NCBI RefSeq assembly: GCF_018607965.1
Contig: NZ_JABBAM010000125.1
Location: forward strand, 1-40,655
From: Planktotalea sp.
Lineage (GTDB): Bacteria; Pseudomonadota; Alphaproteobacteria; Rhodobacterales; Rhodobacteraceae
DNA: 40,655 nt
Direction: 5' to 3'
Shown here one piece after another: positions 4,385 through 10,001 of this stretch. Under the pieces are notes generated by a model, which worked only from the letters and a program-made list of their open reading frames with translations, was not told where the DNA came from and searched no databases. The position numbers and the translations under genes are program-made. Position 1 is the stretch's first letter. Each line of letters starts with the position of its first letter.

Positions 4385-4427
4385 CGCGTTTTGTTCCCTA
4401 TAGGAGACGTGTTGCCCCTCCATAGAA

Positions 4428-4459
4428 AAAGCGCGCAGTCATGTCCAACTGCGCGCTTT
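4428..4459 (-). terminator. rho-independent terminator after the His-rich gene
   Basis: A perfect 12-bp inverted repeat (AAAGCGCGCAGT / ACTGCGCGCTTT, 8-base loop) is followed on the minus strand by a T run (CTTTTTCT). It ends transcription of the histidine-rich gene just before rnhB. Confidence 0.88.
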
Positions 4460-4470
4460 CCCGTATGTGC

Positions 4471-4490
4471 GATGCCCGGAGTGGGGCATC
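4471..4490 (-). other. second hairpin behind the His-rich gene
   Basis: A perfect 7-bp stem GATGCCC / GGGCATC with a 6-base loop lies between the His-rich gene stop and the main terminator. It has no T run. It may protect the transcript 3' end or be an auxiliary terminator. Confidence 0.4.
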
Positions 4491-4508
4491 GCGGCTGCTC
4501 AAGCTTGG

Positions 4509-4919
4509 TTAGTGACGGCCGCGGTGGTGACGTCGGCCATGTGGGTGCTTGTGACCGTGGCCATTACCGTGACGGTGCCATTCGTTTGCGCGACGATTGT
4601 TATGACCGTTATTGCTGAACTGGCGGTGGGTGTTGTGCCCGCGATGCGCACGCTGTTGTTTGTGACTGCGCTGGGGTTGCACATATTTCTTTTGTGGATG
4701 TGAGTTCTTTTTGAAGCCGCCATTGTTGTCAATCGCTTTACCAATGATCGCGAGGGCAACGACGCCGGCAATGGCCGCAGCAAGGGGATCAACGGTGTTC
4801 TGGTTGCGGTGATGAACCTGTGGCGCGCGGCGGTATTCACCGGCTTGAGCCATAGTGGAAGAGATGCCTGTAATTGTGAGAGCGGCAGCAATGATAGTTG
4901 AGATAAACGTGCGGTGCAT
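4509..4919 (-). CDS. exported histidine-rich protein, possibly metal-binding
   Basis: A 136-residue protein with an N-terminal signal peptide (about 1-26, ending TMAQA), a second hydrophobic Ala/Ile/Gly segment at about 45-62 that could sit in a membrane, and a tail from 74 to the end that is almost all His, Asn, Gly, Arg and Gln, with 15 His in 63 residues and runs such as HGNGHGHKHPHGRRHH. Such tails commonly bind Zn, Ni or Cu, but no enzymatic motif is present and the metal role is inference. The ATG at 4919 is chosen because AGGA sits just upstream and the signal peptide starts there; an open extension to 4976 adds no signal-like sequence. The gene is divergent from the small exported protein and membrane winged-helix pair. 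Confidence 0.7.
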   Translation of the reverse strand: MHRTFISTIIAAALTITGISSTMAQAGEYRRAPQVHHRNQNTVDPLAAAIAGVVALAIIGKAIDNNGGFKKNSHPQKKYVQPQRSHKQQRAHRGHNTHRQFSNNGHNNRRANEWHRHGNGHGHKHPHGRRHHRGRH

Positions 4920-5088
4920 GTTTTGATCCTGACTTGGTTGGTGTCCCCCAGTGATTGGCGAACTTGATGGGATCAATCTGGGGTCACCCCCTGTTGGCAG
5001 GCAATATCAACGCGTTGTTATCCAATAACGCTGGCGCACATGACCATTGTTATTGAAAAACATCGCGCTTGAGGGCATCTAGAGTGGC

Positions 5089-5328
5089 ATGAAACATCAC
5101 ATTACATATCTCGCCGCTGCCGCGTTTCTGGTTGTCTTTTCTAGTGCCGCCGCTGCCGATTGTACTGCGGTCTATAAGGCCAAGCAGGACAACCCTTTGC
5201 GTCTTGAGCACAGTTCGATGACGGTCTCTGGACCGTGTTCTGTATCTGCTGCGACGTCCAAGGTTCAAGCTGCGCTTGCCTCAAGGGGCTGGACTTTGCT
5301 TAAGGTTTTGTCAGTCTCTGAAAATTAA
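5089..5328 (+). CDS. small exported protein with two cysteines, unknown function
   Basis: A 79-residue protein with a clear signal peptide (residues 1-23, cleavage expected after SSAAAA) leaving a mature peptide of about 56 residues. The mature part starts DC and has two cysteines (25 and 50) that could form a disulfide in the periplasm. I do not recognise the family. The stop is 8 bases before the next ATG, so it is almost certainly co-transcribed with the membrane winged-helix protein, perhaps as its periplasmic partner (inference). Confidence 0.65.
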   Translation: MKHHITYLAAAAFLVVFSSAAAADCTAVYKAKQDNPLRLEHSSMTVSGPCSVSAATSKVQAALASRGWTLLKVLSVSEN

Positions 5329-5336
5329 GTGGGAAA

Positions 5337-6047
5337 ATGACAGTGCAAGACGAGACAGCCACAGCAGCGGACGCGCGCAGAACAGGTAACAGGATCGTCG
5401 TCATTGGGTTGGCGGCGATTGTTGGCATTCTATTTGTAGCGGCTGTTATTCTGTTCGCGAACCTACCTGATGCGAACGCGTTTAACTTGCGGGTTGAGCA
5501 GATATTCATCGAGAATGATGATCTGACGAGCCAGTCCGAGATCAAACTGCTTGAGATCCTTGCACAGTCCGGGACGTCGTTTTCTGAAACCTTGGCATCC
5601 TATCGCTTTGTGATTTTCGTGTTGCTGATCTTTGCAACTTCCTTGCTGATTGCTGCGGTCGTATTCCTTGTCATGTTGATCGTGTTGAACCGCCGTATGG
5701 CGCAGATCGAGCGGTCGGGGATTCAAGTGTCTTCGCTGTTGATCTCGCGCGAAGAGAAGACGGTTTATTTGAATAACATGGGGTTCAAATTGACCGATGC
5801 GGCGATGGAGACATTGTCGGTTTTGGCAGAGGCCCGCATGGATGATGATGTGATGACGGGTGCCGAGATTGAGGGCGTGATTTCTGGACGCAGTTCTGTG
5901 GATTGCGAAGAGGCCGCGGGGGCCACGCGGATCAAGCGTTTACGTGATGGTTTGGGCAATCAGATGGTCAGTGAGTTGTTGGTGAAGAATATCGCCCGCA
6001 AGGGGTATATGCTGGCGATTGATAAAGATGTGATCAAGGTTCTTTAG
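5337..6047 (+). CDS. membrane-anchored protein with a C-terminal winged-helix domain
   Basis: The 236 residues read as a short cytoplasmic start, transmembrane helix 1 (about 19-41), a periplasmic loop of about 48 residues rich in acidic residues, transmembrane helix 2 (about 90-118), and a cytoplasmic C-terminal domain. Residues 142-228 resemble an OmpR/PhoB-type winged helix: a short strand, FKLTDAAMETLSVLAEA (first helix), ATRIKRLRDGLG (recognition helix, like the family ISRLRKKLG), and IARKGYMLAI (like the family wing RGxGYxL). ToxR/CadC-type membrane regulators have this domain at the N-terminus, so the order here is reversed. The small exported gene immediately upstream may encode the signal partner. 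Regulator function is inferred from the fold resemblance only. Confidence 0.65.
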   Translation: MTVQDETATAADARRTGNRIVVIGLAAIVGILFVAAVILFANLPDANAFNLRVEQIFIENDDLTSQSEIKLLEILAQSGTSFSETLASYRFVIFVLLIFATSLLIAAVVFLVMLIVLNRRMAQIERSGIQVSSLLISREEKTVYLNNMGFKLTDAAMETLSVLAEARMDDDVMTGAEIEGVISGRSSVDCEEAAGATRIKRLRDGLGNQMVSELLVKNIARKGYMLAIDKDVIKVL

Positions 6048-6078
6048 TGTTTTCGAATCGCTTGCGCGATCCGATCGG

Positions 6079-6130
6079 CTGGGGGTTTCACCCCCAGACC
6101 CCCGAGGATATTTTTAAAAGGTGAAGAGGT
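6079..6130. repeat. hairpin-associated intergenic repeat, copy 1
   Basis: The 7-bp inverted repeat CTGGGGG / CCCCCAG is followed by CCCCCGAGGATATTTTTAA and then AAGGTGAAGAGG. The same arrangement (C/G-rich hairpin, then CCCCGGGATATTT, then AAAGGTGAA) recurs at 20472-20528 and 25131-25183. It lies after the winged-helix gene and may work as its terminator. Confidence 0.6.
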
Positions 6131-6191
6131 AATCTGGGTTTTTAGTTGCGAATGACTCGCAATTTTAGTGGAGCGATCCCATATAGTGCGT

Positions 6192-6635
6192 ATGGATAGA
6201 CGAACCTTTAATACTAGCCTCATCGGTGGCGCATTTGCTGCTGCCCTTCCTTTACCTAGCATTGCGGCGGCTGTGAAGCCTGCGACGGGTCCGTTATACG
6301 CGTGGGCCGTGGCGATTGCGCGTGCGCAGAACCGTGCGTCGCCTGCTTTGTTGGCGCAGCAACTTCACATATCCCAGGCGGCGGCCTCAGAGCTGTATGC
6401 GAGTATGATTGCCAATGGTGTTATTCGTGCGCCCTTGTTTGGGGGAATGGCGCGGGCTGCGCAGCCATTGTTCAAAAGTGGTCAGTTGGCGGGTGTTGAG
6501 GCCAAACTGGGAAAATCTGCGAGTTCCAAGCTAAAGGACATGAAGCGCGCGTTTGATAAGGTGGTTGAAGAGGATGCGCCCAAAATGTGGACGCATCCGA
6601 GGATCAAGCGACCTGATCTAGGTTTCGCGCGATGA
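6192..6635 (+). CDS. Tat-signal protein with an HTH-like segment, unknown function
   Basis: A 147-residue protein starting [13 protein letters not shown], a twin-arginine-like signal (RR then F, hydrophobic stretch to about residue 27, ending SIAAA). The mature part has a helix-turn-helix-like stretch at about 51-79 ([20 protein letters not shown] then NGVI), which looks like the LAxxLxISxxxxSxxLxxLxxxGLI pattern of DNA-binding proteins. A DNA-binding domain behind an export signal is odd: the signal may act as a membrane anchor, or the helices may have another role. An in-frame GTG at 6168 would add eight residues, but the ATG gives a normal signal. The 3' end overlaps the end of the convergent acyl-CoA dehydrogenase gene by about 30 bases. 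Confidence 0.55.
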
Positions 6636-7743: not shown

Positions 7744-8930
7744 TGCATCATCTCCAATGCGACTGCTGTTGCTTCGCCGCCGCCTATACAGACCGAGGCG
7801 ATGCCGCGTTTCATATCACGTGCTTGTAGTGCGCCTATGAGGGTTACCATTATGCGTGCGGCTGAAGCGCCAATGGGGTGGCCTAGGGCGCATGCGCCGC
7901 CGTGGACGTTCACCTTGTCGTGGGGCAGGCCGAGCGCGTGCATTGCGGCCATGGGAACGACGGCGAAGGCTTCGTTAATTTCGAACAGGTCCACGTCTTT
8001 GAGCGCCCAGCCCGTTTTCTCGGATAGCTTGTTCAGCGATCCGATGGGGGCCGTGGGGAACAGGCCCGGTTTGTCGCCGTAACTTGTGTGCGCGACCATG
8101 CGGGCGAGGGGGGTTAACCCGCGTTTTTCCGCCTCAGAAGCGCGCATCATTACCATTGCGGCGGCGCCATCAGAGATAGAGGACGAGTTGGCCGCCGTCA
8201 CCGTGCCGTCCTTACGAAACGCGGGACGTAGGTTGCGAATCTTGTCGCGCTTGGCCTTGGCGGGCTGTTCGTCGGTTGTGACTAGACTGTCTTCGCGACG
8301 GTTCTGCACGGTGACGGGCGTGACCTCACCGTTAAAGTGACCGCCGTCAATTGCCGCGACTGCGCGGTCCAAAGAGGCGATGGCGTAGTCGTCCTGTGCC
8401 TCGCGCGTGAACTGATATGTTTCGGCGCAATCCTCAGCAAAAGTGCCCATCAGGCGACCCTTGTCGTAGGCGTCCTCTAGCCCGTCAAAGAACATGTGGT
8501 CCTTCATTTCCGCGTGGCCCATGCGCAGACCTGCGCGCGCTTTGGGAAGCAGGTAGGGTGCGTTGGACATGCTTTCCATGCCGCCCGCGACGACCACGTT
8601 AGCAGAGCCTGCGTAGAGCATATCGTGCGCATACATCGTGGCCTTCATGCCAGAGCCACACATCTTGTTCAGCGTTGTGCAGGTCGCGCTAAGGGGGAGG
8701 CCCGCGCCCAAGGCGGCTTGGCGTGCGGGAGCTTGGCCTTGGCCAGCGCTGAGCACGTTGCCGAATGCGACTTCCTCGATAGCGTCGGGTGCAAGGCCCG
8801 CACGTTCGACAGCAGCCTTGATCGCGGCTGCGCCGAGCGTGGCGGCGGATGTGTTCGCGAAATCGCCCTCGAACCCGCCCATGGGGGTGCGTGCGATGGA
8901 AACGATAACGATGGGGTCAGTGGTGGACAT
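7740..8930 (-). CDS. acetyl-CoA acetyltransferase (thiolase)
   Basis: Catalyses reversible cleavage of a 3-ketoacyl-CoA to acetyl-CoA plus a shortened acyl-CoA. The 396-residue product has all three catalytic elements: Cys91 in [10 protein letters not shown], the His in [17 protein letters not shown], and the second Cys in [15 protein letters not shown] is also present. First gene of a two-gene operon with the acyl-CoA dehydrogenase. The start is 75-90 bases from the divergent AraC-type regulator, which may control it. Both degradative beta-oxidation and ketone-body or amino-acid catabolism are possible. Confidence 0.93.
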
Positions 8931-9020
8931 GAGTATGCTCCCTTGTGTTGATCTTAGGCTAGACCAAAGGTGACTGGCAAACTATGCTGAAAGCCGTCAA
9001 CTATTGTGATCTATTTTACC

Positions 9021-10001
9021 ATGTCTGAAACATTTATCTCGAATGCCTTTGTCAGCGAAGCGCTGGATTGTGCGCGTCGTGGGGGCGTTGATATTTCGCG
9101 CCTACTGGAGACAGCGCAGATTGATGCGCCTGGGGGTGGGCAGGTTGCTGGCGATGCATTTGGTCGGCTGTGGCTGGGAATTGCAGAGGCGATGAACGAC
9201 GAGTTTTTTGGCAATGCAGCGCGGCCTATGCGACCGGGTAGTTTCGCGCTGATGGGTCACGCAGTGCGTAGCGCGCCGACGGTTGAGGTCGCTTTGCGCC
9301 GTGCCTTGCGGTTTCTGAGGGTGGCGATTGATGAGCCGTATGGGACGCTAAGTGTGAGTGCTGGCAAAGCGCAGATTACGTTGCATGATACCCAAACGGA
9401 TCGCAGCGCGTTTGCGTATCGCACGTTCTGGGTGATCTTGCATGGGCTGACCTGTTGGTTGGCGCGCGCGCGTATCCCTTTGCATGCGCTGGATTTTACC
9501 TGCCAAGAACCACGTCATGTGGGCGACTATCACCAGTTCTTTGGTGCGCCTGTGACGTTTAAAGCAAAGCAAGGCGCGCTGTCATTTGATGCGCGCTATT
9601 TGCGCCGTCCTGTGGATCGAAGTGAAGCGGCGCTGAAGCGGTTTTTGCGTGCCTCGCCGGGTATTTTTCTGACGGGGTATAAGTATGATGAGGGGGCGTT
9701 GGGTGCAGTTATGGACCTGCTGAAAGCGCGTGATCCTTTGGAGTGGCCAGCGTTCCCCGCGCTTGCGAAAGAGCTGGGAATGAGCACGCCGACTTTGCGA
9801 CGACAGCTTGCGCAGCAAGGGCATAGCTATCGCGGTTTGAAATCTGATTTGCGGCGGGACCGTGCGCAAGGTTTGTTGCGGGACACTAGGTTATCTGTTG
9901 CGGACATTTCGCATTACCTTGGGTACGCTGAACCCAGTGCCTTTTTCCGTGCGTTCAAAGGATGGACGGATCAAACGCCAGATGCGTGGAGGCAGATTTA
10001 G
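9021..10001 (+). CDS. AraC-family transcriptional regulator
   Basis: A 326-residue regulator with a long N-terminal ligand domain of the type found in OruR/ArgR-like AraC proteins (residues about 15-200) and a C-terminal AraC DNA-binding domain (about 235-325). The latter contains LAKELGMSTPTLRRQLAQQG (first HTH) and LSVADISHYLGYAEPSAFFR (second HTH), followed by FKGWTDQTPDAWR. An in-frame GTG at 9006 would add five residues; the ATG at 9021 is the more usual start, with no strong ribosome site for either. It faces away from the thiolase/acyl-CoA dehydrogenase operon and probably regulates it and itself (inference from orientation). Confidence 0.88.
   Translation: MSETFISNAFVSEALDCARRGGVDISRLLETAQIDAPGGGQVAGDAFGRLWLGIAEAMNDEFFGNAARPMRPGSFALMGHAVRSAPTVEVALRRALRFLRVAIDEPYGTLSVSAGKAQITLHDTQTDRSAFAYRTFWVILHGLTCWLARARIPLHALDFTCQEPRHVGDYHQFFGAPVTFKAKQGALSFDARYLRRPVDRSEAALKRFLRASPGIFLTGYKYDEGALGAVMDLLKARDPLEWPAFPALAKELGMSTPTLRRQLAQQGHSYRGLKSDLRRDRAQGLLRDTRLSVADISHYLGYAEPSAFFRAFKGWTDQTPDAWRQI

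Follow-up and report, generated by a model that had tools for sequence, protein, structure and literature searches.

A membrane-anchored OmpR-type protein and its exported two-cysteine partner as a probable envelope regulator of Rhodobacteraceae

Three neighbouring genes on a contig of a draft Planktotalea genome (3.0 Mb in 178 contigs) raise the question of what a unit comprising two exported proteins and a membrane protein with a winged-helix domain senses, and which genes it controls. The genes lie in a stretch of 40,655 nucleotides (NZ_JABBAM010000125.1), here termed the window, for which a preliminary description had proposed a single sensing unit at 4509-6047 with metal as the simplest guess for its signal. 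All three genes were found at those positions (Table 1). The fold of the regulator, the linkage of its gene to the adjacent small gene (hereafter the pair), the operator, its helical phasing and its distinction from Zur boxes, the envelope-type targets, and the dependence of the DUF5333 site on the pair were all obtained by computation.

Table 1. Positions in the window of the three genes, the operator sites, and the parts of the regulator.
Feature	Position	Strand	Basis or remark
Exported His-rich protein, 136 aa	4509..4919	-	ORF reading; family link by hhalign
Predicted operator site 1, half-conserved copy, GGCAGGCAATATC	4996..5008	+	CAATAWC in 70/75 loci
Predicted operator site 2, GTTATCCAATAAC	5017..5029	+	
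Predicted operator site 3, GTTATTGAAAAAC	5049..5061	+	begins 40 bp before the ATG of the small gene
Small exported protein, 79 aa, two invariant Cys, proposed periplasmic partner	5089..5328	+	
Membrane-anchored regulator, 236 aa	5337..6047	+	
Regulator, first membrane helix, ~residues 22-42	5400..5462	+	hydrophobicity
Regulator, second membrane helix, ~residues 91-114	5607..5678	+	hydrophobicity
Regulator, OmpR-type winged helix, model residues 12-110 = protein residues 131-229	5727..6023	+	predicted fold
Regulator, putative recognition helix, model residues 73-87, nearly invariant TRIKRLRD	5910..5954	+	role suggested by the fold

The minus-strand gene ends with a stop codon at 4509, and the ATG at 4919, which yields 136 residues, is a likelier start than the TTG at 4976. 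On the plus strand, 8 bp separate the small gene from the regulator gene. A sigma-70 scan of 4400-6300 revealed no promoter-like site. In 54 of 74 other loci (L081-L160), the small gene overlapped the longest ORF of the regulator, a crude count because start codons are unsettled, and the overlapping small genes often had a longer C-terminal tail (..SAG..YLRF). Judged from these reading frames, the overlap suggests translational coupling. The next gene downstream, at 6168-6635 on the plus strand, encodes a protein with a twin-arginine-like start and weak helix-turn-helix matches (MarR_2, E 0.035; FtsK_gamma, E 0.0067), all below the cut-off and odd for an exported protein.

Of 101 relatives, 50 were found to carry the regulator; the small gene was found in exactly these genomes, with both genes on one contig in 48. 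Across the order, which was represented by 390 genomes in 140 genera, the regulator turned up in 343 genomes and 127 genera, as a single match in every row among those listed; a profile search of the class retrieved it from 5 of 385 genomes, all five within Rhodobacteraceae. Gene clustering in 80 named loci revealed the small gene in 74 and the divergent gene in 67, along with two further neighbours, which we take from the ORFs of the window to be an rnhB-like gene (69 loci) and a ccrM-like methyltransferase gene (67 loci). The pairing in the 50 relatives and in the 74 loci is of the kind expected of a co-component system, in which a partner gene lies next to that of its regulator. The co-occurrence of all three genes, on which the preliminary description had staked its reading, held for the small gene and the regulator and, at the level of the family, for the divergent gene; it failed for the His-rich form of the divergent protein, which was found in 7 of the 101 genomes, six of them of the window's genus.

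In the alignment of the regulators, hydrophobic 19-residue windows covered columns 16-51 and 83-124. On average, 2.7 K/R residues stood against 1.8 D/E before the first segment, 3.5 against 7.2 between the segments, and 3.2 against 1.4 after the second. Because of this charge balance around the two segments, both ends of the regulator are predicted to lie inside, in the cytoplasm, by the positive-inside rule, which is a rule of thumb. Profile searches for the winged helix were equivocal for the window protein, which matched Pfam Trans_reg_C weakly (E 0.0077, 16.7 bits, cut-off 26.2), and whose 117-residue domain gave no Pfam match at E<=0.01. The relatives were clearer: all 29 full-length regulators matched Trans_reg_C at E<=0.1 (best 2.9e-6); of the isolated domains, 55 of 62 matched it at E<=0.01, a group that does not include the domain of the window protein. 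The whole regulator retrieved nothing from the PDB by sequence at E<=1; the best PDB match of the domain was RstA (E 0.06). Single-sequence hhalign of the domain against one response regulator from locus L259 gave no match.

Structure prediction, which the preliminary description had named as a check, returned an OmpR-type fold. The AlphaFold model of the whole regulator was poor (pLDDT 57.6) and unusable; the model of the domain alone, constructed from 62 sequences, reached a pLDDT of 89.5 and a pTM of 0.82 and contained strands, three helices, and a final C-terminal hairpin in the OmpR order. With this model, the first Foldseek matches were OmpR-type domains (best E 1e-3). VIA-align yielded Z scores of 11.9 for VanR (rmsd 2.4 over 91), 11.7 for CovR, 11.5 for PhoB, 10.0 for CadC, and 9.6-9.7 for ToxR. 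Together with the Pfam matches of the relatives, the model supports the earlier claim that an OmpR-type winged helix follows two membrane helices at the C-terminus. On the modelled fold, a DNA-binding domain and two hydrophobic segments in one chain would make the protein a transmembrane transcription regulator. Pfam detected no receiver domain in the 29 regulators, and the absence of this N-terminal domain removes two-component response regulators as a class. C190 was invariant in the 29 full-length proteins and nearly so in the 62 domains.

ToxR-like receptors have an N-terminal winged helix, one membrane helix, and a C-terminal periplasmic domain, and CadC has an N-terminal winged helix and a large periplasmic sensor. 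The regulator does not have the ToxR-like layout, the order being reversed, with two helices first. CadC is likewise a membrane-bound one-component regulator with an OmpR-type winged helix, but its domain order is also reversed relative to that found here. In ToxR/ToxS, VtrA/VtrC, and similar co-component transmembrane regulators (PMC10269533), an OmpR-type winged helix held at the inner membrane is likewise combined with a small co-encoded partner on the periplasmic side. In those systems, the DNA-binding domain is N-terminal and precedes one helix, whereas here it is C-terminal behind two; the predicted periplasmic part is here a loop of ~45 residues, and the partner is a two-cysteine protein without a Pfam family.

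That partner agrees with its preliminary description: 79 residues, two cysteines, and a signal-peptide-like start. Both cysteines, C25 and C50, were invariant in 43 sequences. Pfam offered no convincing family for the protein (best PepSY_2, in 4 of 43 members, E 0.0043), and a PDB search with it returned nothing. By analogy with ToxS for ToxR, the small protein is the regulator's likely periplasmic partner.

The divergent protein of the window contains no cysteine and 18 histidines, and the count of 15 histidines in its last 63 residues given in the preliminary description was confirmed. Its first 73 residues matched the divergent family of the other loci (hhalign probability 98.6, E 8.7e-16). 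Common to thirty family members selected for their C-terminal repeat are a signal peptide, a hydrophobic segment rich in Gly and Ala, a basic linker that varies, and four invariant cysteines; in the whole set, 64 of 71 proteins have at least four cysteines and 4 have none. Outside the window, family members contain 1-17 histidines (median 7, counted on whole ORFs). Pfam suggested no convincing family (matches in 2 of 30 members), and PDB searches retrieved huntingtin fusions only. On these sequences, the divergent gene appears to encode a basic exported family, mostly with a four-cysteine repeat, of which the His-rich protein would be the form of the window's genus; the histidine tail is read as local variation because the family elsewhere carries the repeat and the His-rich form is limited to the few genomes given above. 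In four Roseovarius loci (L093, L112, L123, and L124, at ~8600-9600), the divergent exported gene was observed in two tandem copies, one with the four-cysteine repeat and the other without cysteine, like the His-rich gene of the window.

The region between the divergent genes, 4920-5088, had been nominated for DNA-binding tests, and a conserved predicted operator of three sites was found in it, at 4996-5061. The operator was defined on the region upstream of the small gene in the window and in 74 named loci, 75 in all. The conserved block begins with CAATAWC, followed after 7 bp by GTTAT-N3-ATAAC and then by a second site of the GTTAT-N3-ATAAC type; a strict pattern allowing a spacer of 3-12 bp after the CAATAWC part matched 48 of the 75 loci, all at 7 bp. 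At least two sites exceeded the threshold in 69 of 75 pair loci, compared with one site in 17 and two sites in none of 1500 shuffled control sequences. The last two sites were 22 bp apart in 5 loci, 31-33 bp in 47, and 42-43 bp in 17, and these spacings therefore correspond to helical-turn steps (periodicity R 0.958 at 10.5 bp, 0.946 at 10, and 0.945 at 11). The distance from the start of the last site to the ATG is usually 39-40 bp.

The exact composite pattern occurred in 8 of 61 relatives. When at most one mismatch was permitted, 79 of the 149 genomes searched in the order had it, compared with one match of the reversed control. In the window's own genome, TGTTAT-N3-ATAAC with one mismatch gave 13 matches, fewer than the 19 of the reversed control, which counts against the reading, and the regulon of this genome is therefore unreadable from that motif alone. 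We read 18 stretches around composite sites across genomes, three of which were the pair locus and 15 extra; the extra sites are those separable from the pair locus by coordinates, more may exist, and the zur match of the window's genome was excluded. By eye, 11 of the 15 precede a gene for an exported protein, with L253 counted among them for its likeness to L254. Their products include DUF5333, BA14K, and peptidoglycan-binding (PG_binding_1) proteins, one protein that matches a glycine zipper weakly, and lipoproteins that belong to no Pfam family; no clear exported gene was seen at L250, L255, L258, and L183. The site in L183 (L183:5008; G008:C1:2642507) is a second exact composite operator in genome G008, near a gene that we take to encode a meaB-like GTPase. 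In four genomes of genus g98 (L262-L265), a composite operator-like site was observed before a lipoprotein gene near ribosomal protein genes; this lipoprotein, tested in L262, has no Pfam family.

The single site GWTATYSVATAWC yielded 113 forward matches and 7 reversed control matches in 40 genomes with the pair. In 30 pairless genomes, it yielded 29 forward matches and 6 control matches, which counts against the regulator as its reader. Among the matches listed and outside the pair and DUF5333 loci, 44 single sites in pair genomes and 20 in pairless genomes were examined; one of the 44, L420, turned out to be the pair locus and was excluded, leaving 43. A gene with a signal-peptide-like start at most 260 bp after the site was scored as a target. 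By this rule, an exported gene followed 15 of the 43 sites in pair genomes, compared with 3 of 264 control positions, and 1 of the 20 sites in pairless genomes, compared with 1 of 120; the 28 of 43 sites in pair genomes that lacked such a gene count against the reading. The rule admitted L362, which looks like a membrane transporter, and passed over L382, where an OmpA-like lipoprotein gene follows at 57 bp. Targets recurring from one genus to another were OmpA-like glycine-zipper lipoproteins (G110 and G140 by Pfam; G122, G150, and G154 by likeness), LolA (G119 and G140 by Pfam), a transglycosylase (G153 by Pfam), and cytochrome c (by Pfam in G156 and by likeness in G122). OmpA, LolA, SLT_2, BA14K, PG_binding_1, and DUF5333 are among the Pfam families of the targets, and 44-170 bp lie between the end of the site and the gene start in the 15 targets measured.

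The exported protein DUF5333 (PF17267) allowed a comparison of genomes with and without the pair. A DUF5333 site was counted if it scored 15 or more on a matrix for which only the pair locus had served as training data. Such a site was present in 52 of 70 pair genomes and in none of the 19 pairless genomes that are 97% complete or more (p 1.6e-9). Because 12 of the 19 pairless genomes belong to one genus (g24), they do not represent 19 independent events of co-loss, and the figure by genus is the fairer one: 46 of 63 with the pair and 0 of 8 without (p 1e-4). Among genomes with a GC content below 0.63, the site was found in 35 of 43 with the pair and 0 of 6 without (p 2e-4). The results for G013, for G289, and for 18 of the pair genomes count against this dependence. 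Two incomplete pairless genomes, G013 (82%) and G033 (86%), had been set aside; G033 has no site but G013, whose contig ends near DUF5333, has a full one, so that inclusion of both gives 1 of 21. In pairless G289, the site scored 14.0, near the threshold, and 18 of the 70 pair genomes have no site over it, including G130, a sister of site-bearing pair genomes. In genus g115, two of three pair genomes carry the site, and pairless G170 has GACATTGCATGTC in about its place, as if a DUF5333 site had decayed there. The DUF5333 gene of the window's own genome (L184:2059-2562; G000:C19) carries an operator-like site and lies behind an ORF that is presumably nuoF; that of G218 lies before an ORF that we take to be nuoG. 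On these readings, a respiratory-complex operon would carry the gene.

The operator shares its GTTAT/ATAAC half-sites and their 3-bp separation with the Zur boxes of Rhodobacteraceae, the published comparison being the Paracoccus Zur boxes of PMC5387054. The comparison concerns the DNA sites alone and claims no kinship between proteins. The zur promoter of the window's genome (L187:383-920; G000:C140) carries GTTATATCATAAC, whose half-sites are those of the operator, and the only two exact TGTTAT-N3-ATAAC matches in this genome are at that promoter and at the present locus. Zur or another Fur-family regulator might consequently be proposed as the reader and the unit as a zinc response. The centres of the sites are, however, of opposite type, being Y.R in 122 and R.Y in 1 of 136 pair-locus sites, and Y.R in none and R.Y in 26 of 34 sites at 30 zur loci, which sets the pair promoter outside the Zur regulon. 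A Zur homologue also occurs in pairless genomes (e.g. G006, G020, and G028), and the targets of the operator are not zinc genes, so that we consider this explanation very improbable. A metal-sensing unit, in which the His-rich protein binds periplasmic metal and the membrane regulator responds, draws on the 15 clustered histidines and on the heavy-metal response regulator model TIGR01387, which 11 of the 29 regulators matched at E<=0.001, but the regulator domain also resembles the VanR, RppA, and PhoB models. The His-rich form is nevertheless confined to a few genomes, whereas the pair and the operator are family-wide, and the promoters that were read serve envelope genes. With an operator centre unlike that of Zur and with motif-bearing promoters mostly of exported-protein and lipoprotein genes, metal sensing retains hardly any credibility, even less than a zinc response through Zur, and the proposal of the preliminary description is abandoned.

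A more serious alternative, although still an unlikely one, is that another transcription factor, lost together with the pair, reads the operator, the membrane winged-helix protein being only one of its targets or acting through protein contacts. Co-lost genes are indistinguishable in the phyletic comparison. The operator is also nearly palindromic, which is more usual for other families and counts against an OmpR-type reader; OmpR-type proteins usually bind direct repeats, as CenR does (PMC9275681). Against this alternative, the richest operator array is found at the pair operon itself, the regulator is the only DNA-binding protein of the unit and has a nearly invariant putative recognition helix, and the DUF5333 site follows the presence of the pair. 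CenR itself was ruled out as the reader on its published motif.

We therefore consider it likely that the locus encodes a co-component regulator for envelope genes, similar to ToxR/ToxS but inverted, which also controls its own operon and is typical of Rhodobacteraceae. Two N-terminal helices, with the conserved periplasmic loop between them, would anchor the regulator in the inner membrane, and its C-terminal winged helix, on the fold model, would read DNA at GTTAT-N3-ATAAC sites. The helically phased sites that separate its own operon from the divergent exported gene may serve autoregulation; an envelope regulon would be formed by the genes for exported proteins and lipoproteins that have such a site in front of them, among them DUF5333, OmpA-like lipoproteins, and LolA. 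The periplasm would be sensed through the loop and the exported partner, and the response would be a small envelope regulon including the operon itself and the divergent gene. We infer that the regulator binds the operator and that the small protein relays the signal. Thiol redox or the folding state is a possible signal, given the invariant cysteines of the small protein and of the divergent family. More generally, the signal may be the state of the envelope, of lipoproteins, or of thiol redox, and the regulation may be positive or negative.

The family has published relatives in several respects. Membrane-bound transcription regulators are common, some with associated proteins; the membrane part comes first and the DNA-binding part last in Rsp of Neisseria, and LytTR domains occur with transmembrane regions in Caulobacter (PMC10269533). 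LytTR regulators use another DNA-binding fold, and Rsp is a PilS/PilR chimera. To our knowledge, no phased GTTAT-N3-ATAAC operator is known for either. Because Rsp and the Caulobacter LytTR proteins precede it, the reversed order as such is not new. CenKR of Rhodobacter sphaeroides, in the same bacterial family, also has an OmpR-type domain and controls mostly envelope genes, but it is a two-component system with a cytoplasmic response regulator and the motif TGA-N8-TGA (PMC9275681). The literature searched, mostly without subscription papers, yielded no description of this regulator type, its operator or regulon, or DUF5333. The earlier view of a less described layout thus stands for the family, which is undescribed in that literature, and falls for the membrane-first order, which has precedents; what is new is the regulator family with its predicted regulon, membrane-bound regulators being already known.

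Rhodobacteraceae are abundant in the sea, and the proposal is directly testable, since the regulator occurs in 343 of the 390 genomes covered in the order and both its operator and an initial set of targets have been predicted. In its fullest form, which we hold to be evenly poised between true and false, the unit would be a nearly universal envelope-homeostasis system of Rhodobacteraceae, in which an inverted, membrane-held OmpR-type regulator with an exported two-cysteine partner and phased, near-palindromic operators adjusts, without a kinase, the supply of lipoproteins and outer-membrane components (LolA, OmpA-like lipoproteins, and DUF5333) in response to periplasmic signals, possibly of thiol redox. 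If the proposal is true, Rhodobacteraceae would possess a kinase-free envelope response beside CenKR, and the OmpR-type winged helix would be workable C-terminal to membrane helices and on near-palindromic sites.
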